Below are positions 1 through 8,587 of a stretch of 8,725 nt of DNA, in pieces (position 1 is the first letter of the stretch; every line of letters begins with the position of its first letter). A model generated the notes under the pieces. The model had not been told where the DNA came from. It did no database searches and was given only the letters and a program-made list of their open reading frames with translations. The stretch covers positions 1 through 8,725 of the forward strand of contig JAILKX010000051.1 in the NCBI GenBank assembly GCA_024693415.1, in the 5' to 3' direction. Both the position numbers and the translations under genes were made by a program. The DNA comes from Bacilli bacterium (lineage in GTDB: Bacteria; Bacillota_I; Bacilli_A; RFN20; CAG-826).

Positions 1-1176
1 TGGTGCGGCCACGTCGTCACTTCCTTCGGCTACCAGGTCTACTGGAACTGGGAGGCCGACGAGAAGCTATACACCGGACTCAAGGACTTCATCGCCGAGC
101 TCAATAAAGACGGCGTGAGGTTCCTCGGCTACATCAATACCTTCTTAAAGGTCGACTCCTCGCAGTACAACTACGCCAAGGAGAATAACCTCTTGGTCCG
201 CCACAAGAAGGGCAACCCCTACCACATCAAGTCCACCACCTTCGAGGCCGGCATCGTCGACCTCACCAACCCGACCGCCTACGAGTGGTATAAGGGCATC
301 ATCAAGAAGAACATGATCGAATACGGCCTCTCCGGCTGGATGGCGGACTTCGGCGAATACCTGCCCACCAACTCGATCACCTATGGCGGCGACCCGCGCC
401 AGCTCCACAACCGCTGGCCGACCCTGTGGGCGAAATGCTGCTACGACGCGATCCACGAATGTGGCAAGGAAAACGAGGTGTTCTTCTTCAACCGCGCGGC
501 GTACGGCCACACCCTCAAATACACCAACTCCACCTGGAATGGCGACCAGCACGTCGACTATTCCGACGAATACGGCATGGGCAGCGTGATCCCCGGATCC
601 CTCTCCCTCGCCTGCTCCGGATGCGGCGTCGTCCACTCCGACATCGGCGGATACACCACCGTCATGTTCATGAGGCGCGACCCCGAGCTCATGAGGAGAT
701 GGTCCGAGATGAACGTCTTCACCCCGGTCTACCGCACCCATGAGGGCAACCGTCCGAAAGACAACGCCCAATTCGACCATCCGGAGGTCATCGAGGAGTT
801 CGCGAAGAACTCCCAGCTGTTCGCATCGCTCAAGCCCTATCGCGACCACGTCCTCAACCAGTACTATGAGGAAGCGGTCCCGGCGATGCGCCCCCTCTTC
901 TTCCACTTCGCGGAAGAGGAAGCCTACGTGACCCAGAGGGAATACCTGTTCGGCAGGGATGTCCTTGTGAGCCCGGTGCTCCGCCCAGGCGAGACAAAGC
1001 ACCGCGTATATCTGCCTGAACCCGAAATCGAATGGGTGCAGTTCTTCACCGGGAAGGTGTTCAAAGGCGGCGTCTATGAGGTCGATTCGCCTCTAGGCAT
1101 GCCGATCGCCTTCTACAGAAAAACATCAGACTTCGCCGAACTATTCGCATCGCTGTCCATCAAGAAAGGAGAATAA
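1..1176 (+). CDS. Sulfoquinovosidase, GH31 family (5' truncated)
   Basis: The open frame runs in from the left edge; 391 C-terminal residues are present. From family knowledge, this is a GH31 retaining alpha-glycosidase of the YihQ type, which releases sulfoquinovose from sulfoquinovosyl glycerol or diacylglycerol. By comparison with E. coli YihQ (recalled, about 678 aa), the window starts near residue 290 and the end is full length. The motif GWMADFGEYLP carries the nucleophile Asp (nt 346-348, YihQ D405). WNGDQ carries the acid/base Asp (nt 544-546, D472). Tyr of HSDIGGYTT (nt 652-654) matches Y508, and Trp at nt 43-45 matches W304. The spacing of these residues agrees with YihQ to within one residue. 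Oddity: the position of R301, which contacts the sulfonate, is Gln (nt 34-36). No signal peptide can be judged because the N-terminus is missing. The next gene starts 4 nt after the stop. Confidence 0.93.
   Translation, partial: WCGHVVTSFGYQVYWNWEADEKLYTGLKDFIAELNKDGVRFLGYINTFLKVDSSQYNYAKENNLLVRHKKGNPYHIKSTTFEAGIVDLTNPTAYEWYKGIIKKNMIEYGLSGWMADFGEYLPTNSITYGGDPRQLHNRWPTLWAKCCYDAIHECGKENEVFFFNRAAYGHTLKYTNSTWNGDQHVDYSDEYGMGSVIPGSLSLACSGCGVVHSDIGGYTTVMFMRRDPELMRRWSEMNVFTPVYRTHEGNRPKDNAQFDHPEVIEEFAKNSQLFASLKPYRDHVLNQYYEEAVPAMRPLFFHFAEEEAYVTQREYLFGRDVLVSPVLRPGETKHRVYLPEPEIEWVQFFTGKVFKGGVYEVDSPLGMPIAFYRKTSDFAELFASLSIKKGE
1165..1171 (+). promoter_or_regulatory. Ribosome binding site of the transaldolase gene
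   Basis: AAAGGAG lies over the last codons of the glycosidase gene, 9 nt before the ATG at 1181. It fixes that start and gives the transaldolase its own strong initiation signal inside the operon. Confidence 0.75.
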
Positions 1177-1180
1177 TCGC

Positions 1181-1861
1181 ATGAAATACTTCTTGGATTC
1201 CGCAAAACTGAATGAAATCGACTACGCCTACAAGGCCTATGGCATTGATGGCGTCACCACCAACCCCCGCCACATCATGGCCTCGGGCAAACCCTTCCTC
1301 ACCGCGATCACCGACATCGCCAACTGGGTCAAGGAAAACCACCTCGAAGGGAAGGACGTCTTCCCGGTCTCCGTTGAGATCAACCCCCACCTCGACAATG
1401 CCGAGGACATGGTCAAAGAGGCGAGGAAGATCTCCGCGCTCTGCGAGAACTTCGTCATCAAGATCCCCTGCAACCCCGAAGGCGTGAAGGCCGCTTTGGC
1501 CCTCGAGAAGGAAGGCATCCGCACCAACGTCACCCTCGTCTTCTCCGCCTCCCAGGCCATCCAGGCCGGCCGCGTCGGCGCGATGTTCGTCTCGCCGTTC
1601 CTCGGCTGGAAGGAATCCTCGGGCGAAGACTCCTACGGCTATATGGCCCAGATCGCCAATATCTATAAAGAAAAAGGATATAAGACCGAGATCATCGCCG
1701 CCGCCGTCCGCTCTGGCAAGCAGATCGCCGAAATGGCGGAGTTAGGCGTCGACATCATCACCGCCGGCCTCGCCGTCTACGAAGACTCCTTCAAGCACCC
1801 GTTCACCGACTACGGCCTCGGCATCTTCCAGAATTCCTGGGACAACACGAAGGGCAACTAA
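1181..1861 (+). CDS. Transaldolase, probable 6-deoxy-6-sulfofructose transaldolase
   Basis: A 226-aa class I aldolase of the small transaldolase / fructose-6-phosphate aldolase family (usual length 210-230). The N-terminal strand MKYFLDSA carries Asp6. GVTTNP (24-29) holds the conserved Asn28. FVIKIP (91-96) holds the Schiff-base Lys94. TNVTLVFS (115-122) and SPFLGW (138-143) match the later barrel strands of the family. Next to a sulfoquinovosidase and a sugar isomerase, the inferred reaction is splitting of 6-deoxy-6-sulfofructose, with transfer of dihydroxyacetone to glyceraldehyde 3-phosphate (giving fructose 6-phosphate) or erythrose 4-phosphate, and release of 3-sulfolactaldehyde. This is the SftT role of Bacillota sulfoglycolysis. 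The alternative, a housekeeping transaldolase, is less likely in this operon. Family call is very sure; the substrate is inferred from context. It is cytoplasmic. Confidence 0.9.
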   Translation: MKYFLDSAKLNEIDYAYKAYGIDGVTTNPRHIMASGKPFLTAITDIANWVKENHLEGKDVFPVSVEINPHLDNAEDMVKEARKISALCENFVIKIPCNPEGVKAALALEKEGIRTNVTLVFSASQAIQAGRVGAMFVSPFLGWKESSGEDSYGYMAQIANIYKEKGYKTEIIAAAVRSGKQIAEMAELGVDIITAGLAVYEDSFKHPFTDYGLGIFQNSWDNTKGN

Positions 1862-1862
1862 G

Positions 1863-2696
1863 ATGAAAGTCGCGTTCATCGGCCTTGGCATCATGGGGAT
1901 GCCGATGGCCACCAACATCTCCAAGAAATACGACCTGATCGGCTGCGACGTCGTCGAGAAAGAGACCCCGTTCCCGTTCACCAAATCCTATAAGGAATGC
2001 GTCGAAGGCCGCGACGTGATCATCTCGATGGTCCCGAAGTCCGAGCATGCCTTAGCCCTCTACGCCGAGCTCCGCAAATACCTGAAGCCCGGCCAGATCT
2101 GCATCGATATGTCGACCATCGCCGTCGCCGCGAGCCGCGAAATCGCCGCAAGCCTCGAAGCGATGGGCGTCGAGATGCTTGACTGCCCCGTCGTCAAGAG
2201 CCAGCCGGCCGCCGTCAAAGGCGAGCTCGGCATCTACGTCGGCGGCAAAGAGGAGGTCTTTGAAAAAGTCAGAGGCATCCTCGAATGCATGGGCAAGAAC
2301 ATCATCCGCATCGGCGACCACGGCACCGGCGCGCTCATGAAGATCCTCCACAACTCGCTCGTCGGCGAGATCCAAAACGGCGTCAACGAAGTCCTAGGCC
2401 TCGCCGAAAGCTGCGGCCTCGACCTCGAGAAAGTCGTCACCGCCTTCTCCTATGGCGGCGCCCAGAACTTCTACATGGACGGCAAGGCCAAGAACATCGA
2501 AAGCAGGACCTACCCCACCGCCTTCTCGGTCGCCAACATGAACAAGGACGTCCACTTCGCGATCGAGATCGCCGAAGCCCAAGGCAAGGAAATGCCCGCC
2601 CTCCATAACGTCGTGAAAGTCTATGAAGCGGCGATGGAGAAAGGCCTCGAGAGGCAAGACTTCTCCGCCACCTACGAAATCGTCAACCCCAAATAA
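1863..2696 (+). CDS. Probable 3-sulfolactaldehyde reductase (beta-hydroxyacid dehydrogenase family, YihU-like)
   Basis: A 277-aa NAD(P)-dependent dehydrogenase of the 3-hydroxyisobutyrate / tartronate-semialdehyde reductase family (usual length 285-300). The N-terminal Rossmann motif GLGIMGMPMA (7-16) binds the dinucleotide. DCPV (107-110) begins the substrate loop, and GALMKILHN (156-164) holds the likely catalytic Lys160 and Asn164. In E. coli YihU the loop after D-x-P-V reads GRTS, with the Arg binding the sulfonate of sulfolactaldehyde; here it reads VKSQ, with Lys112 at that place instead of the SGG of ordinary family members. The C-terminal ERQDFSA resembles YihU GRQDWSA. Inferred reaction: SLA + NAD(P)H to 2,3-dihydroxypropanesulfonate, which re-oxidises cofactor in a fermenting cell. 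It starts 1 nt after the transaldolase stop, with GAAGGG 8 nt before the ATG. The exact substrate is unproven. Confidence 0.85.
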   Translation: MKVAFIGLGIMGMPMATNISKKYDLIGCDVVEKETPFPFTKSYKECVEGRDVIISMVPKSEHALALYAELRKYLKPGQICIDMSTIAVAASREIAASLEAMGVEMLDCPVVKSQPAAVKGELGIYVGGKEEVFEKVRGILECMGKNIIRIGDHGTGALMKILHNSLVGEIQNGVNEVLGLAESCGLDLEKVVTAFSYGGAQNFYMDGKAKNIESRTYPTAFSVANMNKDVHFAIEIAEAQGKEMPALHNVVKVYEAAMEKGLERQDFSATYEIVNPK

Positions 2697-2708
2697 AGAA
2701 GACCAATT

Positions 2709-4046
2709 ATGAAAAAAGCCAAAATCGGTATCGTATGCACCGTCAGGAAGACATTCGACTTCGTGACCGCATTCGAGCTCTACAAGCAGAGAACGGCCGA
2801 GCTCATGAAGGATGACTCCGTCGAATGGGCCAACTACCCTGAGATGGTCATCGAGCAGAGCGACGCCGAAAAAGCGGGCGAATTCTTCATCCGCGAAAGG
2901 GTCGATGCCCTCATCATCGTCTCGGCGACGTTCCACCTCGGCCACCTCGCCCTGATCCTCAACAGGATGGTCCGCGTGCCCCTATTGCTCTGGGGCTACG
3001 ACGAACTTCCCTACGATGGCGGCAAGATCCGCCTGAACGCCGTCTGCGGCGTGAACCTGAACGCCTCGAACCTCTACAAAGGCGGCAACGACAATTTCAT
3101 CGTCCACGTCGGCAACGAAGTGGATGAGGATTGGATCAAGGCCGTCAAGATGATGGTTGCGCTCAAGACCACCAAGATCGGCCTCGTCGGCCACCACGCC
3201 GATGGCTTCTATAACGTCGGCGTCGATGAGCTCCACGTCTATCAGGAAATGGGCGTATTGCTCAACCACTATGAGCTCTCGCAGTTCTTCGGCGGCGAAG
3301 CTACCCCCGAGGAAGTTGCGGCGGAAAAAGCCAACGTCCTCAAGCTCTTCGACGTGAAGAAACTAAACGATTCTCAGGTCGAAAAGGTTGCAAAACTCGT
3401 GGTTGTCGCCTCGAAATTCATGAAACAGGAAGGCGTTGACGTCATCGCCATCCGCTGCTGGCCCGAGTTCGCGAGGACCTATGGCGTCTCGCCCTGCGCG
3501 ATGATGTCGATCCTCCAGAGCCGCAACATGCTCCTCGCCTGCGAAGGCGATATCGAAGCCGCGCTTTCGATGGTCGCGGTCAGGGCCGCGGGCGAGCCCA
3601 CCCCCTTCATGGCCGACCTCTCGCAGGTCAACTACACCGAGAACTACGCCTTGCTTTGGCACGATGGCGTCGCCCCGTGCAACCTGTGGGATGGCATCTG
3701 CAACAGGAGCCTTGAGACCTATTTCGCCGGCGGCAAAGGCGTCACCGCGGACTTCGTCCTCCACAAAGGACCGGTCTCGATCCTAAGAATCGACACCGCC
3801 AGGGGCAAAACCCGCCTCTTCTATGAAGAAGGCGAGGCGGTCCCGATGGAGAAACAGCTCTCCGGCACCTACGCCAAAGTCATCTTCGACCACCACATCT
3901 CCAAGGTGATCGATACCGTCGTCTACACCGGCGTCGCCCACCACGTCATCATGGGCTACGTCAAATATCGCACGGCGATGCGTTACCTCGCCCGCATCAT
4001 GGGCTGGGAGGTCATCGATGTCGATAAAGATTACTTCTCCAAGTAA
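2709..4046 (+). CDS. Sugar isomerase of the L-fucose/L-arabinose isomerase family, probable sulfoquinovose isomerase
   Basis: A 445-aa protein with the layout of the FucI/AraA superfamily. An N-terminal Rossmann-like region (about 5-170) contains SATFHLGH (72-79) and WGYDELPYDGG (95-105). The second half carries the metal site: Glu279 in ACEGDIEAA, Asp303 in MADLSQ and a His at 411 or 412 in AHHVIMGY, matching the Glu-Asp-His ligand set known for FucI. These enzymes interconvert aldoses and ketoses with Mn2+ or a similar metal. In this operon the inferred reaction is sulfoquinovose to 6-deoxy-6-sulfofructose (the SftI role), which feeds the transaldolase. An isomerase for another sugar cannot be excluded by sequence alone. 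The start lies 12 nt after the previous stop behind a weak AAAGAAGA site. Its 3' end overlaps the next gene by 29 bp. Confidence 0.85.
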   Translation: MKKAKIGIVCTVRKTFDFVTAFELYKQRTAELMKDDSVEWANYPEMVIEQSDAEKAGEFFIRERVDALIIVSATFHLGHLALILNRMVRVPLLLWGYDELPYDGGKIRLNAVCGVNLNASNLYKGGNDNFIVHVGNEVDEDWIKAVKMMVALKTTKIGLVGHHADGFYNVGVDELHVYQEMGVLLNHYELSQFFGGEATPEEVAAEKANVLKLFDVKKLNDSQVEKVAKLVVVASKFMKQEGVDVIAIRCWPEFARTYGVSPCAMMSILQSRNMLLACEGDIEAALSMVAVRAAGEPTPFMADLSQVNYTENYALLWHDGVAPCNLWDGICNRSLETYFAGGKGVTADFVLHKGPVSILRIDTARGKTRLFYEEGEAVPMEKQLSGTYAKVIFDHHISKVIDTVVYTGVAHHVIMGYVKYRTAMRYLARIMGWEVIDVDKDYFSK

Positions 4047-4620
4047 GGAGTACGGCTATTTCCTCGAGGGCGATTTCTCCGCCCTCCTGGAATACCTGAA
4101 GTCCACCCCGATCCCCGAGCAGGGAAACATCTATGTCAGGGATGATATTTCGATGCACGGGGTCAACGGATTCCGCTTCATCCAGGAAAAAGTCTTCGGG
4201 CTTGGGGCCATGGAAAGCGGCTACTGCAACGGGAACAACAAGAAACTCAATTGCCTCGAGTTCCACGCTTGCCCGGAAGCCGATCTGGCCTTGAACGACC
4301 AGATCCTCCTCCTCGCCCTGCCCAAAGACATCCACGATGGGGTCATCGACTCCAAAGACGTCATCGCCATCCGCCTCAAGGCCGGGCAATGCTTCGTCTT
4401 GAACCCCTACGTCCTCCACTTCTCTCCCTGCATGGACAACAACGTCCCCTTCCGCTGCGGCATCTTCCTCTCCGAGGGCACAAACCGCGACTTAGAAGGC
4501 CCGAAGTCCGATCCGACATTATGGAAGGAGAACAAGTGGCTCTACGCCCACAAAGAAACCGTCCAGGCCGCTAATGGGGCCTACGTCGGAATCGTCGGCG
4601 AAAACACCCTCGTCCCATGA
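4018..4620 (+). CDS. DUF4867 family protein, role in sulfoglycolysis unknown
   Basis: A 200-aa soluble protein that I recognise as DUF4867. Family-like blocks are KEYGYFLEG (10-18), TPIPEQGNIYV (30-40), GYCNGNN (68-74), CLEFHACPE (79-87) and YVLHFSPC (131-138). The spacing of Glu81, His83 and His134 resembles the ligand set of cupin-fold proteins, so a metal-binding beta barrel is plausible (inference). I recall DUF4867 members in other Bacillota SFT-type clusters, but the biochemical role is not established to my knowledge. Candidates are an SQ or SF mutarotase/epimerase, or a helper of the isomerase. The start at 4018 lies inside the isomerase gene and has a good GGGAGG site (4006-4011) 6 nt before it; no later ATG would preserve the KEYGYF block. 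Its stop overlaps the next start as ATGA. Confidence 0.82.
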   Translation: MSIKITSPSKEYGYFLEGDFSALLEYLKSTPIPEQGNIYVRDDISMHGVNGFRFIQEKVFGLGAMESGYCNGNNKKLNCLEFHACPEADLALNDQILLLALPKDIHDGVIDSKDVIAIRLKAGQCFVLNPYVLHFSPCMDNNVPFRCGIFLSEGTNRDLEGPKSDPTLWKENKWLYAHKETVQAANGAYVGIVGENTLVP

Positions 4621-5339
4621 GCCTCTACGAAATCCTCTTCATCCTCGTCATCTTCCTCTCGAACATCGTCCAAACCGTGACGGGGTTCGCGGGGACCGTA
4701 TTGGCGATGCCCTTCTCCATCGAATTGGTTGGGGAAGCGGTAGCGAAGCCCGTCCTCAATGTCGTGGCGATCGGCGTATGCCTATTCATCGTCATCATGC
4801 ATTTCAAGGAAATCGACTGGAAGTTGTTCCTGAAGATGATCGTCTTCATCGGAATCGGCTTCGCGGCCGGCATCGGGCTCTCCTATCTCCCGCATGACGC
4901 GCGCCTGTTCCTTAAGATCTATGGTGCGGTCGTCGTGGCGATAGGGGTGCTGTTCCTCATCATTCCACCGGAAAGGATGAAACTCCCGGATTGGGCGCTC
5001 TACACCATCCTCGTCCTCGGAGGCGTGCTCCACGCCCTCTACATCTCGGGCGGACCGCTCGTCATCATCTTCGCCACCATCAAAATCAAGGACAAGCACG
5101 CCTTCCGCGCCACCTTGTCCGCGATATGGGTTGTGCTGAATTCCATCTTGCTTGGCCAACAGGGCATGAATGGGATGCTCACCGCCCAAGTCGGTTGGCT
5201 CATCCTGATCGGGGGAGGCGTGACGCTCGCCTCCATCATCATCGGGCACTTCCTCGCGAAATACATGCCCAAGAAAGCGTTCATGATCGCCACTTACATC
5301 CTGCTGATCGTAAGCGGCGTCACACTACTCATCAAATGA
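4617..5339 (+). CDS. TauE/SafE family sulfonate exporter
   Basis: A 240-aa integral membrane protein of the TauE/SafE (DUF81) family, usual length 240-270. About seven to eight hydrophobic segments can be seen: near 5-25, 43-62, 69-90, 98-117, 126-154, 165-180, 189-211 and 219-239. The family repeat signature appears as TGFAGTVLAMP (22-32) and again as ISGGPL (143-148). Relatives export sulfite, sulfoacetate and other C2/C3 sulfonates. Here the likely cargo is the end product DHPS (or sulfolactate), which the cell does not use further and must excrete. There is no ribosome binding site: the start ATG shares ATGA with the stop of the DUF4867 gene, so translation is probably coupled. Family is sure; cargo and direction are inferred from the operon. 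Confidence 0.88.
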   Translation: MSLYEILFILVIFLSNIVQTVTGFAGTVLAMPFSIELVGEAVAKPVLNVVAIGVCLFIVIMHFKEIDWKLFLKMIVFIGIGFAAGIGLSYLPHDARLFLKIYGAVVVAIGVLFLIIPPERMKLPDWALYTILVLGGVLHALYISGGPLVIIFATIKIKDKHAFRATLSAIWVVLNSILLGQQGMNGMLTAQVGWLILIGGGVTLASIIIGHFLAKYMPKKAFMIATYILLIVSGVTLLIK

Positions 5340-6316
5340 CAACCAATAGATCGCAGAATAAAATCGTTGCCTTGCTCTTGAAGAAGGGCGCCGCCTCCAA
5401 GAAAGAGCTGTCTTTCGAGATGGGTCTTTCGCAGGCGGCTTTGACCATTTCCGCGCGACCCCTTATCGAAAATGGGGTCATTCAGATCGAAGGGAAGAAA
5501 GGCAACGGCAAGGCCGGGAGGAAGGAAGAGATGCTCTCCCTCAACCCCAATTATGGCTACTATTTGGGCTGCGATATCAAAGAGACCTCCATCACCGTGT
5601 CCACCATGGATTTCGCGGGTCACTTGACCTTCGAGAAGAAATGCCGGACCGGGGATGAGGCGATCCTCGTCATCGAAACCCTCATCAAGGACGGCGCCCC
5701 GCTTGGGGTCGGCGCGATCCACCGCAAGAGCAAGGCAAGCGAAAAGGCATCCGAATTCATCGCGCGCCTATCCGCCTTGCCTATTCCTGCGCCGCGCAAG
5801 GTCAACAACGTCGAATCCCTCGCCGCGATCTACCGCTTCTACCACGAAGAGGCAACGAACTTCCTTCTCATCAAATATGGGCCTGGCGTTGGCAGCTGCA
5901 TCTATGCTAACGGCGCGCCAATATTAAGAAGCAACGGCGTGAAAAGCGAAATCGGCCATGCCTTCCTAAGCGATGGCAGGCGGCTCGAAGACGCGGTCTC
6001 CTTCTCCTCGCTCCTCCACGAGGACATCGAGGAAAGGGAAGGTGCCGAGCTCATCTACCGCGACGAGAAGCTCCTGAACGCCGCTTTGCAGGGCCTCGCC
6101 CTTGCGATCGTCGACGCCGATGCGCTCCTCGCCCTCGACAAGATCGTCTTCGCGGGCATATTGCTCTCGAAGGAAGACATCAAGGAAAAGATCGGCAAGA
6201 TGGTCCTCGCCTACGACCCAAGCTTCGATGTCTCGAAGATCTCGATCTACCCCGACTACGAGGAGAAGAACCGGGAAAAAGCCTGCCTCGAAGTGATGCT
6301 CGAAGATTATAATTAA
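5336..6316 (+). CDS. ROK-family transcriptional repressor, probable local regulator of the sulfoquinovose operon
   Basis: A 326-aa protein. Residues 5-52 look like a winged helix-turn-helix domain (KKELSFEMGLSQAALTISARP), followed by a ROK (NagC/Mlc-type) ligand-binding domain. Recognisable ROK blocks are YYLGCDIKETSI (75-86, normally DIGGT), VNNVESLAA (156-164), YGPGVGS (181-187) and SEIGHAF (204-210). The EIGH motif is kept, but the zinc-binding CxCGxxGC cysteines that normally follow are absent (SDGRRLED instead). The degraded DIGGT motif argues against sugar kinase activity. The protein is shorter than usual ROK repressors (about 370-400). The start overlaps the exporter stop as ATGA with no ribosome binding site, so it is probably translationally coupled. 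Inference: it senses SQ or a pathway intermediate and represses the operon from an operator upstream of this window. Confidence 0.82.
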   Translation: MTTNRSQNKIVALLLKKGAASKKELSFEMGLSQAALTISARPLIENGVIQIEGKKGNGKAGRKEEMLSLNPNYGYYLGCDIKETSITVSTMDFAGHLTFEKKCRTGDEAILVIETLIKDGAPLGVGAIHRKSKASEKASEFIARLSALPIPAPRKVNNVESLAAIYRFYHEEATNFLLIKYGPGVGSCIYANGAPILRSNGVKSEIGHAFLSDGRRLEDAVSFSSLLHEDIEEREGAELIYRDEKLLNAALQGLALAIVDADALLALDKIVFAGILLSKEDIKEKIGKMVLAYDPSFDVSKISIYPDYEEKNREKACLEVMLEDYN

Positions 6317-6405: not shown

Positions 6406-7938
6406 ATGGCGTTATTGGAACTGCAGGACATCGAATTCAATTACTCCGACAAAGAGCTCTATCGCAAAGCCTCGATGAAGATCAATCCGGGCGAGCATTG
6501 CTGCCTCGTCGGAATCAACGGGTCTGGGAAGACCACTATTTTGAACATGATCGTCGGCGAGTTCCGCCCCGACAAAGGAAAAGTGATCTGGGAGCCCCAC
6601 GTCACCTACGCCTACTTGGACCAGCAGCTAAAGGTCCAGCAGGATATGCCCGTCTCATCGTATCTATATGGCGTCTACAGCGACCTCTTCGATAAGGAGA
6701 AGGAGATGGAGAATCTCTATGCCGAAGCCGCTAGCGGCGAGGGCGATTATGAGAAATTGCTCAACAAGGCGATGCGCCTAGGCGACGAGCTGGAGCAGAA
6801 AGGCTTCTATACCCTGCAGGAGAAAGTGGGCAAGCTGACCGACGGCTTAGGGTTCGACAAAAACGATTTGGGGCGACCCCTGCATGAATTATCGTCCGGC
6901 CAGCGCGAAAAAGCCTACCTCGCGAAGATGCTTCTAGAGGAAAAGGACGTCCTCATCATGGACGAGCCGACGAACTTCCTCGATCAGTTCCAAGTCGCCT
7001 GGCTTGCCGCCTATCTCGACTCCTACCCGAAGGCATTCCTCGTCGTAAGCCACGACGAAGCTTTCCTGAGGAAAATCGCCAAGGTCGTGTTCTGCTTGGA
7101 AAACAAAACAATCACGCGCTATAAGGGCGATTTCGATAGCTATCTATCGCAGCACGAGCTCGACAAGGAGCAATACCAAAAGAACTATGATGCCCAGCAG
7201 CGCTACATCAAGAAAGAAGAGGACTTCATCGCCAAGCACATCGTCCGCGCGACGAGCGCCAAAGCGGCGAAGAGCCACAGGGCGAGGCTTGCCCACCTCG
7301 AGGTTATGGATGCGCCTGGTAAAGAAGGCGGAAACGTCCACTTCAACTTCCCCTTCACCCACGACGTCGGGCAGAAGCCCCTCATCGTCGAAGAGCTCGA
7401 AATCGGATATACGTCCCCGCTCCTTTTGCCGATCAGCTTCATTTTGAAGAAGGGTGAGAAGATCGCGATCCTCGGTCAGAACGGCGTCGGCAAAACCACC
7501 TTCCTCAAGACCATCATGGGCAAAATCCCGTCCTTAGGCGGCACCTACACCTGGATAGATGGCATCAACATCAACTATTACGATCAGGACGAGAAGATCG
7601 ACCTCAGTATGTCACCCTTCGAATACGTCCACGCGAATTACCCATCTTTGGATAACACCAAGATCCGCACCACGCTAGGCGCGGTTGGGGTCAAGAAAGA
7701 ACTTGCGCTCCGCAAGATGAGCGAGCTTTCCGGCGGCGAGGTCACCAAGGCCCGCTTCGCCGTGATGACCCTTAAGAAATCGAACTTCCTGATCCTCGAC
7801 GAGCCGACCAATCACCTCGATCAAAAGGCAAAGGACGCCCTGTTCGAGGCGATTGAGAACTATCCTGGCGGCGTCATCATCGTGAGCCACGAAAAAGACT
7901 TCTACGATGGACTCGTCGACTATGAGCTGAACTTCTAA
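6406..7938 (+). CDS. ABC-F family ATPase (YdiF-like), ribosome-associated
   Basis: A 510-aa soluble protein with two ABC ATPase domains and no membrane segment. Domain 1: Walker A GINGSGKTT (36-44), signature LSSGQ (162-166), Walker B with DEPTN (186-190), switch His216. Domain 2: GQNGVGKTT (357-365), LSGGE (441-445), DEPTN (466-470), switch His495. The charged linker between them (about 245-305) is the ABC-F interdomain arm that reaches into the ribosome. Its IVRATSAKAAKS stretch resembles the YdiF type. It probably acts on translation or stalled ribosomes; a resistance role cannot be excluded but has no special support. The frame is open from an ATG at 6328, but those 26 residues cover the terminator and promoter, so 6406 is preferred. 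No clear ribosome binding site is present, as expected for a leaderless start. Its stop overlaps the convergent gene by 4 bp. Confidence 0.92.
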   Translation: MALLELQDIEFNYSDKELYRKASMKINPGEHCCLVGINGSGKTTILNMIVGEFRPDKGKVIWEPHVTYAYLDQQLKVQQDMPVSSYLYGVYSDLFDKEKEMENLYAEAASGEGDYEKLLNKAMRLGDELEQKGFYTLQEKVGKLTDGLGFDKNDLGRPLHELSSGQREKAYLAKMLLEEKDVLIMDEPTNFLDQFQVAWLAAYLDSYPKAFLVVSHDEAFLRKIAKVVFCLENKTITRYKGDFDSYLSQHELDKEQYQKNYDAQQRYIKKEEDFIAKHIVRATSAKAAKSHRARLAHLEVMDAPGKEGGNVHFNFPFTHDVGQKPLIVEELEIGYTSPLLLPISFILKKGEKIAILGQNGVGKTTFLKTIMGKIPSLGGTYTWIDGININYYDQDEKIDLSMSPFEYVHANYPSLDNTKIRTTLGAVGVKKELALRKMSELSGGEVTKARFAVMTLKKSNFLILDEPTNHLDQKAKDALFEAIENYPGGVIIVSHEKDFYDGLVDYELNF

Positions 7939-7955
7939 TTCAGCATCTGCTTTTT
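7926..7955 (+). terminator. Possible weak terminator of the ABC-F gene over the convergent stop codons
   Basis: GCTGAA (7926-7931) and TTCAGC (7939-7944) form a perfect 6-bp stem with a 7-nt loop that contains both stop codons. TTTTT follows at 7951-7955, but only after a 6-nt gap, so termination may be inefficient. On the minus strand no T-tract follows. Confidence 0.35.
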
Positions 7956-8489
7956 CTTGAGTTGGAACAAGAAGCAAAGGAGTCTGAACAAAGGCACCGA
8001 AACCCAGTAATTGAACGCCACGCAATCGTTATCGTATAGGACGACCGTGCGGCGGTGGCTCGCCTCCAAATCGCGCAAGCGCACTATTTCCTGCTGGAGT
8101 TTTGCGCTCTTTTCTTCGTCTTTGATGCCTTGGACCGCGAACATAAGAAGCGTCTGGAATTCCTTAAGCTCGGCCTGCGCCGACGCGAAGGACTCATCAT
8201 TGGTGACTTTGATTTCCTTGGTCATGACCTCATCGTATTTCGCCTTGAGGCCATCGTCGGCGAACCCTTTGGCCTCGACGATCTGATAGATTTCCTTAAG
8301 ACAGGCTTTCTTCTCGAGGAGCAATACCGTCAGCGCGTCGAGCTTCCGCGAGAGCCTTCTCCGGAAATCGAAGGCGTGCGATATGACGAAAAACGCCGAT
8401 GAGACGTAAAGGAATATGACGACGAAAAAAGCGAGCAGGACGATTTGGTACGCCTGCATCCCCGCTGCAAAGATCGGTAGGTTCGCCAT
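7935..8489 (-). CDS. Membrane-anchored coiled-coil protein, distant LemA-like
   Basis: A 184-aa protein. Residues about 14-38 form one N-terminal membrane segment. After it comes a long charged helical region (42-160) ending in LQQEIVRLRDLEASHRRTVVLYDN and then a hydrophobic, proline-containing segment (161-176) and a KKK tail. This order (membrane helix, antiparallel helices, an R-x-x-YN-like stretch, hydrophobic end) resembles LemA, whose function is poorly defined, but the usual LIPNLV and YN motifs are not clearly kept, so the family call is tentative. The C-terminal hydrophobic stretch could be a second membrane contact. The start at 8489 has no good ribosome binding site and sits 7 nt after a -10 box. 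Met11 (8459) is a possible but not better start. Convergent with the ABC-F gene (4-bp overlap) and divergent from the HAD gene. Confidence 0.72.
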   Translation of the reverse strand: MANLPIFAAGMQAYQIVLLAFFVVIFLYVSSAFFVISHAFDFRRRLSRKLDALTVLLLEKKACLKEIYQIVEAKGFADDGLKAKYDEVMTKEIKVTNDESFASAQAELKEFQTLLMFAVQGIKDEEKSAKLQQEIVRLRDLEASHRRTVVLYDNDCVAFNYWVSVPLFRLLCFLFQLKKKQMLN

Positions 8490-8538: not shown

Positions 8539-8567
8539 TTGCCATTTAATGTCGACCTTAATATAAT
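8539..8567 (+). promoter_or_regulatory. Near-consensus promoter of the HAD-family gene
   Basis: TTGCCA (8539-8544), a 17-bp spacer and a perfect TATAAT (8562-8567) are followed by an expected transcription start near 8574 and a leader of about 20 nt with a ribosome binding site. This is the strongest promoter seen in the window. Confidence 0.75.
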
Positions 8568-8572
8568 TAAGG
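8556..8572. repeat. Perfect 7-bp inverted repeat over the -10 box, possible operator
   Basis: CCTTAAT and ATTAAGG flank a 3-bp centre (ATA). The repeat covers the whole TATAAT box of the HAD promoter, a place where a dimeric repressor would block polymerase. Part of the symmetry comes from the AT-rich -10 box itself, so an operator role is only possible. Confidence 0.45.
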
Positions 8573-8581
8573 CACCTGAAT

Positions 8582-8587
8582 AGGAGG
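8582..8587 (+). promoter_or_regulatory. Consensus ribosome binding site of the HAD-family gene
   Basis: A perfect AGGAGG lies 7 nt before the ATG at 8595 and fixes that start. It contrasts with the two other promoter-proximal genes in the window, which lack such a site. Confidence 0.85.

Follow-up and report, generated by a model that had tools for sequence, protein, structure and literature searches.

A predicted sulfoquinovose fermentation operon from a gut bacterium has an apparently new glycosidase variant

A compact gene cluster predicted to ferment a sulfosugar

We analyzed contig JAILKX010000051.1 of the Bacilli assembly GCA_024693415.1, a stretch of 8,725 nucleotides referred to here as the window. 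Open reading frames and profile scans identified seven genes, all on the forward strand and tightly spaced, with overlaps or gaps of 1–12 bases. These encode a GH31 glycosidase, a transaldolase, a beta-HAD reductase, a FucI-like isomerase, a DUF4867 protein, a TauE exporter and a ROK regulator – the order given by the original prediction, an earlier annotation made from the sequence alone. That prediction also described a route that lacks a kinase, and profile libraries revealed none among the window proteins scanned. We favor, with a probability of roughly 0.6, the reading that this is an operon for transaldolase-type sulfoquinovose fermentation (SFT) which forms 2,3-dihydroxypropane-1-sulfonate (DHPS) and whose sulfoquinovosidase has a rebuilt sulfonate pocket.

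The glycosidase belongs to a variant group in the sulfoquinovosidase branch of GH31

The first gene (positions 1–1176, forward strand) encodes the C-terminal 391 amino acids of a GH31 glycosidase (PF01055/PF21365); its 5′ end is cut by the contig start, and the fragment begins at the residue that matches Trp290 of Escherichia coli YihQ. Consistent with the protein belonging to the sulfoquinovosidase branch, YihQ is its best match in the PDB (E 4e-115) and the catalytic Asp405 and Asp472 (nucleophile and acid/base; YihQ numbering throughout) are kept. Against NCBIfam PRK10426 (cut-off 553) the fragment reaches 509 bits, and the complete enzyme of a related locus, L004 (5498–7465), reaches 678. 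A predicted model of the L004 enzyme, with a predicted local distance difference test (pLDDT) score of 77.8 and poor in several active-site loops, is nearest to the sulfoquinovosidase structures 8r56, 5oht, 6pnr, 7ofx and 5ohy (E 3e-64 to 2e-57), with other GH31 enzymes at 1e-34.

We take Arg301, Trp304 and Tyr508 to be the sulfonate contacts of YihQ. Descriptions of the contact residues of YihQ, of the sulfofructose transaldolase and of YihU reportedly go back to Speciale 2016, Abayakoon 2018, Snow 2023 and Sharma 2020. Alignment of the window enzyme to YihQ places the equivalents of Trp304 and Tyr508 as expected, a glutamine at position 301 (codon at 34–36), the loop KSTTF at 366–370 where [DE]FGE[FI] is otherwise found (229–243), and a histidine in place of Asn474, which is serine in other enzymes with Arg301 (550–552). 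Close relatives of the window enzyme likewise carry Gln301; the enzymes at sulfo-transketolase (sulfo-TK) loci carry Arg301. We refer to the two groups as Q-type and Arg-type.

A wider alignment comprised 156 Q-type and 21 Arg-type rows, or 152 and 17 distinct ones over residues 300–600. One Arg-type row is partial, some rows repeat the same gene, and L070b is a further piece of L130; the homologs are the best 120 of 3901 for a Q-type query and give no estimate of the type's frequency. All Q-type rows share Gln301, Thr368, Thr/Ser369 and His474, with [KTQA][ISA]T[TS] at 366–369, against Arg301, [DE]FGE and Asn/Ser474 in every Arg-type row. His153 and Lys161, in a region outside the window that is seen in full-length Q-type relatives, are present in all 155 Q-type rows that cover them. 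Printed alignments show Arg301 in the four solved sulfoquinovosidases, from E. coli, Bacillus megaterium (8r56), Eubacterium rectale (6pnr) and Agrobacterium tumefaciens (5ohy).

A tree built without columns 301 and 364–371 separated 40 Q-type from 16 Arg-type proteins by one branch, with a support of 100 in the Shimodaira–Hasegawa-like approximate likelihood ratio test (SH-aLRT). The tree thus marks the Q-type as a single ancient lineage, not as random scatter among the sequences. No mention of an Arg301-to-Gln substitution turned up in the literature searched, and the E. rectale paper says that the sulfonate is recognized by highly conserved residues, with no more specific statement. The glycosidase – a GH31 of the sulfoquinovosidase branch with changed pocket residues – looks like the new part of the operon, and its missing arginine is a point that the original prediction passed over.

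Two simple explanations of the substitution were considered and rejected. His293 is not a convincing stand-in for Arg301, since the Arg-type rows L068 and L070 carry histidine there too, and Gln301 is not coupled to the divergent isomerase described below, since the Q-type SFT locus L121 (G543:C84, 752–9683) pairs it with an SftI-type isomerase (403.8 bits). L121, which has a GPH-like symporter at its far end, is a mixed case between two isomerase clades. In one other genome (G006:C66, 2381–4345) the GH31 gene has one in-frame TAG and is hence split or mis-assembled there.

Q-type genes are found with two sulfosugar pathways

We searched the 279 genomes of the order of genome G004 with the GH31 of L004 and found 23 with a match at E ≤ 1e-100, each with a single match at that threshold (these metagenome-assembled genomes, MAGs, may be incomplete). 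On the fetched stretches, the transaldolase, the reductase and the isomerase lie beside the GH31 gene at all 23 loci. DUF4867 is present at 21, TauE at 20, ROK at 10 and a protein like the upstream symporter described below at 18 (two at only 24% identity), some contigs ending too early for the outer genes to be judged. Because the three core genes adjoin GH31 in 23 of 23 genomes, the gene set is far beyond chance. All 22 readable GH31 sequences of these SFT loci are Q-type.

The association extends to broader samples, with p values that ignore kinship between genomes. Among 392 genomes sampled across the phylum, six contain a protein that scores 180 bits or more against the SftI model, and all four Q-type genomes are among them (p = 1.5e-8; p = 1e-6 with the centre genome left out). 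In the order of G178 (160 genomes), a match of at least 280 bits to SqwD was found in eight of nine Q-type genomes vs 15 of the 160 (p = 6e-9). This order yielded 23 GH31 matches in 16 genomes, nine Q-type and 14 Arg-type (one partial). Both types occur together in eight genomes – seven from this order plus G318 of the phylum sample.

At five loci (L152, L153, L154, L157 and L158) the Q-type gene sits at the edge of a sulfo-TK operon, and in the last four of these it adjoins a GPH-like symporter. Pfam and BLAST checks covered the transketolase halves and the rpiB-like isomerase, aldehyde dehydrogenase and CoA-ligase genes of the sulfo-TK set, of which L152 and L157 show only the last three. 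L159 and L160 have the Q-type/symporter pair without sulfo-TK genes nearby, though their genomes have a SqwD match, and the contigs or positions of L155 and L156 are too short for their company to be judged. The families, the gene order and its conservation, and the Q-type clade with its company are plain from the sequences. Because the Q-type gene is found with both SFT and sulfo-TK genes, its company speaks for it still being a sulfosugar enzyme.

Some related loci differ in other ways. At L071 (G370:C20, 1193–6165), kin of the transaldolase (57%), reductase (45%) and isomerase (46%) lie beside a phosphotransferase system (PTS) EIIC gene and a DeoR regulator. The 12 kb fetched there yielded no GH31, and residue 30 of the transaldolase is asparagine; this variant may use a different importer or act on a different sugar. 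At L072 (G417:C4, 1214–6071), a xylose-isomerase-like TIM barrel, a Gfo/Idh/MocA oxidoreductase and a carboxylesterase surround the symporter upstream of GH31. The carboxylesterase could deacylate a sulfolipid, and the oxidoreductase belongs to the fold class of GH188. After the operon, L116 and L118 have what appears by eye to be the start of a GH13 alpha-glucosidase-like gene and a second transporter with 23–24% identity to the L004 symporter.

Transaldolase, reductase and isomerase

The transaldolase gene (1181–1861, forward strand; PF00923) encodes a predicted sulfofructose transaldolase of the SftT/SqvA type. Its best PDB match is the B. megaterium sulfofructose transaldolase 8bc3 (E 1e-86, 293 bits), 130 bits ahead of the highest-scoring chain from any other protein (163 bits). 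Residues Asp6, Glu66 and Lys94 are kept in the aligned rows. The window protein also has Arg30, Trp143 and Arg177, the Arg-Trp-Arg set that we assume to contact the sulfonate. Trp143 and Arg177 are found in 25 of 25 rows; two fructose-6-phosphate aldolase outgroups have threonine or serine at position 30 and arginine at 143. Plasmid-borne relatives were rejected as named SFT references, as they are only fructose-6-phosphate aldolase-type matches (37–42% identity, five records).

The next gene (1863–2696, forward strand; PF03446/PF14833) encodes an NAD-binding beta-HAD reductase, likely a 3-sulfolactaldehyde reductase (SftR). Its Lys112 occupies the place of YihU Arg123, presumably a sulfonate-contact residue, where GarR has glycine; lysine is found there in all 24 reductase rows other than YihU. 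The original prediction called this enzyme YihU-like. Its beta-HAD family stands, but the tartronate semialdehyde reductase model scores higher than that of YihU (166 vs 126 bits) and 'YihU-like' is thus only a family-level statement.

The fourth gene (2709–4046, forward strand) encodes a FucI/AraA-fold isomerase, likely a sulfoquinovose isomerase. Its predicted FucI type holds for the fold and through a full-length match to the NCBIfam SftI model, but PF02952 falls below the Pfam cut-off (26.3 vs 29.3 bits). The AlphaFold2 model (pLDDT 84) finds arabinose isomerases as its best folds (TM 0.81 by query length). The equivalents of FucI Glu337, Asp361 and His528, which we take to be metal-binding, are kept as Glu279, Asp303 and His412.

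The isomerase forms its own clade of 22 rows, including L071 (SH-aLRT 99). A position among plain-sugar isomerases was rejected: the free tree set this clade and SftI/SqwD apart among long branches, and the tree that holds them together is better by 7.84 log-likelihood units and was not rejected by the approximately unbiased (AU) test (p-AU 0.647). Consistent with this grouping, 30 diagnostic residues are common to the window isomerase and SftI/SqwD and absent from other FucI/AraA-family isomerases, against seven the other way. Placement of the isomerase or transaldolase among enzymes for non-sulfonated sugars, named beforehand as the finding that would overturn the original prediction, did not occur. 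The original prediction is supported in part: the match to 8bc3 and the isomerase residues speak for transaldolase-type sulfoglycolysis, with a probable reductive end.

Accessory protein, transport and regulation

The DUF4867 gene (4018–4620, forward strand; PF16161) encodes an SftX-type cupin that keeps the 2His-2Glu metal site of 9gyy (Glu81, His83, Glu87, His134; E 1.5e-33). In the published SFT clusters this protein is SftX, a metal cupin that is present also in plain ketose clusters. The following gene (4617–5339, forward strand; PF01925) encodes a TauE/SafE exporter, likely for a C3 sulfonate.

The last gene of the cluster (5336–6316, forward strand) encodes a ROK-type regulator (PF00480, 26.4 bits) with an N-terminal winged helix (HTH_24, E 0.002, below cut-off), and its ATG start, at 5336, overlaps the stop codon of TauE. 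A ROK gene accompanies the loci of G004, G408, G002, G005 and G007; none was found for G001, G003 and G557.

An importer, for which the original prediction had recommended an upstream search, turned up in close relatives: a symporter gene lies divergent and directly upstream, beyond the point where the window's contig ends, in L001–L005 and L074, and the three proteins scanned (L001, L004 and L005) all score above the GPH family cut-off. The stretch that separates symporter and GH31 holds two exact copies of the 19-bp palindrome TAATTAA-N5-TTAATTA in L004 and in L123; these are the only exact matches in genomes G004 and G408. By eye, L002, L005 and L074 have imperfect pairs and L001 one imperfect copy, with none in L003 and L122. 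A dedicated ROK repressor would fit this arrangement. An operator inside the window was rejected: its one 3-mismatch match (8564–8582) lies outside the operon, and 7 of 200 shuffles have one.

An ABC-F family ATPase gene follows ROK (6406–7938, forward strand; by eye, 6406 is a better start than 6328). It was rejected as an operon member, as other genes follow ROK in L002, L004, L005 and L007. On the reverse strand, 7938–8489 encodes a 184-residue protein with an N-terminal hydrophobic stretch and no match in Pfam or NCBIfam. The genome collection yielded seven relatives, all MAGs labelled as Bacilli, Erysipelotrichaceae or Firmicutes; the records of L003, L004 and L006 give deer abomasum, omasum and rumen as the sample source.

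Comparison with characterized systems

SFT with reductase-made DHPS is known from E. rectale and Clostridium symbiosum, with E. gilvus taking DHPS further. The reductive, DHPS-forming end is thus not new, and we rejected it as a novelty. The E. rectale (Agathobacter) SFT or sulfo-TAL system (SftG, SftI, SftT, SftR, SftE and SftX) shares with the window the pathway steps, a reductase-made DHPS end (proposed for the window), DUF4867, an exporter and an anaerobic gut host. It differs in its Arg-type glycosidase (6PNR), whereas the window has an isomerase in a separate clade (180 bits vs the SftI model), a GPH importer in its relatives, and another class and host. The SFT system of Bacillus/Priestia megaterium (SqvA; 8bc3, 8r56 and 9gyy) provides the nearest solved transaldolase and DUF4867 protein and a glycosidase among the nearest, but its glycosidase is Arg-type and an aldehyde dehydrogenase makes sulfolactate as its end product.

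Compared with the known GH31 sulfoquinovosidases (YihQ, A. tumefaciens SQase, SftG and BmSQase), Q-type enzymes are alike in fold, the catalytic Asp pair, Trp304, Tyr508 and, in relatives, Gln262/Gln288. They are unlike at Gln301, at 366–369, at His474 and, in full-length relatives, at His153 and Lys161. The sulfo-TK loci of other Bacilli (L067–L070, L152–L154, L157 and L158) encode a transketolase route, with Q-type GH31 at the edge in L152–L154, L157 and L158; in three of these five Q-type genomes (G124, G432 and G439) an Arg-type GH31 shares the locus. A parallel subgroup with an altered sulfonate-site residue is found in the GH188 sulfoquinovosidases (PMC11465081), but these have another family and fold, and there a leucine is replaced by tyrosine at a backbone contact and the modelled site is intact.

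Proposed pathway and alternative explanations

In the pathway that we infer for substrates, transport directions, repression and sulfonate binding, the GPH symporter encoded upstream of the contig end in relatives would import a sulfosugar glycoside, from which the GH31 enzyme would free sulfoquinovose inside the cell. The isomerase would then form 6-deoxy-6-sulfofructose, and the transaldolase would move C1–C3 of sulfofructose onto glyceraldehyde-3-phosphate, giving fructose-6-phosphate, which would be fermented, and 3-sulfolactaldehyde. The reductase would convert the latter to DHPS and recycle NADH, TauE would export DHPS, and the ROK protein may repress the locus through the paired 19-bp palindrome. 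The Q-type sulfonate pocket would be a rebuilt one, with Gln301, the changed 366–369, His474 and, in relatives, His153 and Lys161.

Several observations count against this proposal. Arg301 is replaced by Gln in the window GH31 and in all 156 Q-type rows, which stand for about 151 distinct genes, and no Q-type enzyme is among the closest PDB sequences (five of six alignments viewed). Position 30 of the transaldolase is not strictly basic (R in 15, K in 7 and N in 3 of 25 rows), and the reductase scores 125.9 bits against the YihU-type NCBIfam PRK15461, with a cut-off of 348. The SftI model (NF048012), though it spans the full isomerase, gives 180.5 bits against a curated cut-off of 700, which an SqwD-type isomerase also misses (415 bits), and at 16 columns (five of them gaps) SftI/SqwD side with other isomerases and the window clade stands apart. 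On the fetched stretches DUF4867 was not found at 2 of 23 loci, nor TauE at 3 of 23. The neglect of kinship weakens the association p values. The palindrome motif was derived from the same loci on which it was tested and, with two mismatches, is no commoner than a control (44 vs 42 in G004, 17 vs 17 in G408). In a 2026 study (PMC13219744), isethionate was the product when rumen fluid received sulfoquinovose; neither DHPS nor sulfolactate was detected, and only two yihQ operational taxonomic units (OTUs), which could be of either type, were enriched.

The Q-type GH31 and its symporter may instead serve a different sulfonated glycoside – differing in aglycone, linkage or sulfosugar – with the same downstream enzymes. 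This is possible but doubtful. Eight genomes have an enzyme of each type, and a single sulfo-TK locus stands between the two in G124, G432 and G439. A GPH-like symporter of its own adjoins the Q-type gene in G432, G439, G433 and G449, whereas the Arg-type loci L067–L070 have an ABC solute-binding protein and permeases. Residues 301, 366–369, 474, 153 and 161 change together and completely, and most rumen yihQ variants were unresponsive to free sulfoquinovose (PMC13219744). However, the Q-type keeps the equivalents of Trp304 and Tyr508, the transaldolase and isomerase look like sulfofructose and sulfoquinovose enzymes, and the one GH31 match per SFT genome (at the threshold above, in possibly incomplete MAGs) means that the Q-type enzyme would feed the pathway alone. 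A broader version, in which Q-type enzymes form a further group of sulfosugar glycosidases that has gone unnoticed, with a substrate different from that of the known sulfoquinovosidases, symporters of their own and much of the published rumen 'yihQ' richness, we hold only tentatively.

Two further explanations we consider improbable. The whole operon could act on a non-sulfonated sugar, such as a 6-deoxyhexose, and yield a neutral C3 product such as propanediol: Arg301 is lost, the isomerase has a FucI/AraA fold, DUF4867 is known also from plain ketose clusters, and at L071 kin of the transaldolase and isomerase lie beside a PTS EIIC. Yet the transaldolase matches the sulfofructose enzyme in Trp143, Arg177 and a residue 30 that is mostly basic, the reductase loop has lysine where YihU has arginine, the isomerase shares diagnostic residues with SftI/SqwD, a TauE exporter is found at 20 of 23 loci, and Q-type GH31 is tied to sulfo-TK genomes. 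Alternatively, the enzyme set and end product, which match the published E. rectale cluster, could mean an ordinary operon of that type in which residue 301 is irrelevant, but Arg, [DE]FGE and N/S474 are constant in the four solved sulfoquinovosidases and in the 21 Arg-type rows (17 of them distinct and one partial), the Q-type set stands apart and departs from all of these at once, and the window isomerase forms a separate clade. We return to a DHPS-forming SFT operon with a rebuilt pocket: the window glycosidase most likely works like a sulfoquinovosidase, though it lacks one defining residue of that family.

Implications for the diversity of rumen sulfoquinovosidases

In PMC13219744, a long branch holds 64% of 1220 yihQ variants in one assay and 47.5% of 1548 in the other, and includes one of the two yihQ copies of Mariniplasma MZ-QX. 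Quite probably, G178, which has both GH31 types, is MZ-QX and the branch copy is its Q-type gene BK011_07555, because the gene positions fit: 1,523,615 and 1,875,054 divided by 1511 and 1858, which are the tag numbers of BK011_07555 and BK011_09290 divided by 5, come to 1008 and 1009 bases for each gene. The two protein accessions run in an order that misfits this simple position picture. If the branch copy is Q-type, roughly half, or more, of the yihQ variants in the rumen would be Q-type, and the survey probably counts Q-type genes as sulfoquinovosidases. The authors' reading of the branch as sulfoquinovosidases may still be right. The survey primers, named 1201 and 1526, give a published amplicon of ~340 bp and would correspond to codons 401–509 if they follow E. 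coli yihQ numbering. The amplicon would then include residue 474 and miss 301 and 366–370, and residue 474 (His vs Asn/Ser) could be used at once to re-sort the existing survey data.

Judged by its sequence, the operon is real, its pathway class is right and its end product is known, and the glycosidase is a new variant. Its genes most likely serve to ferment sulfoquinovose, the sulfur-bearing sugar found in plant membranes, along a known route in an uncultured Bacilli species of the ruminant gut. If Q-type enzymes are real sulfoquinovosidases, the residue signature of the family is too narrow and there is a second way to hold the sulfonate. If they are not, part of the reported richness of sulfoquinovose degraders in the rumen is something else – and, should the Q-type have another substrate, the survey would be tallying organisms that consume a compound not yet measured by anyone.

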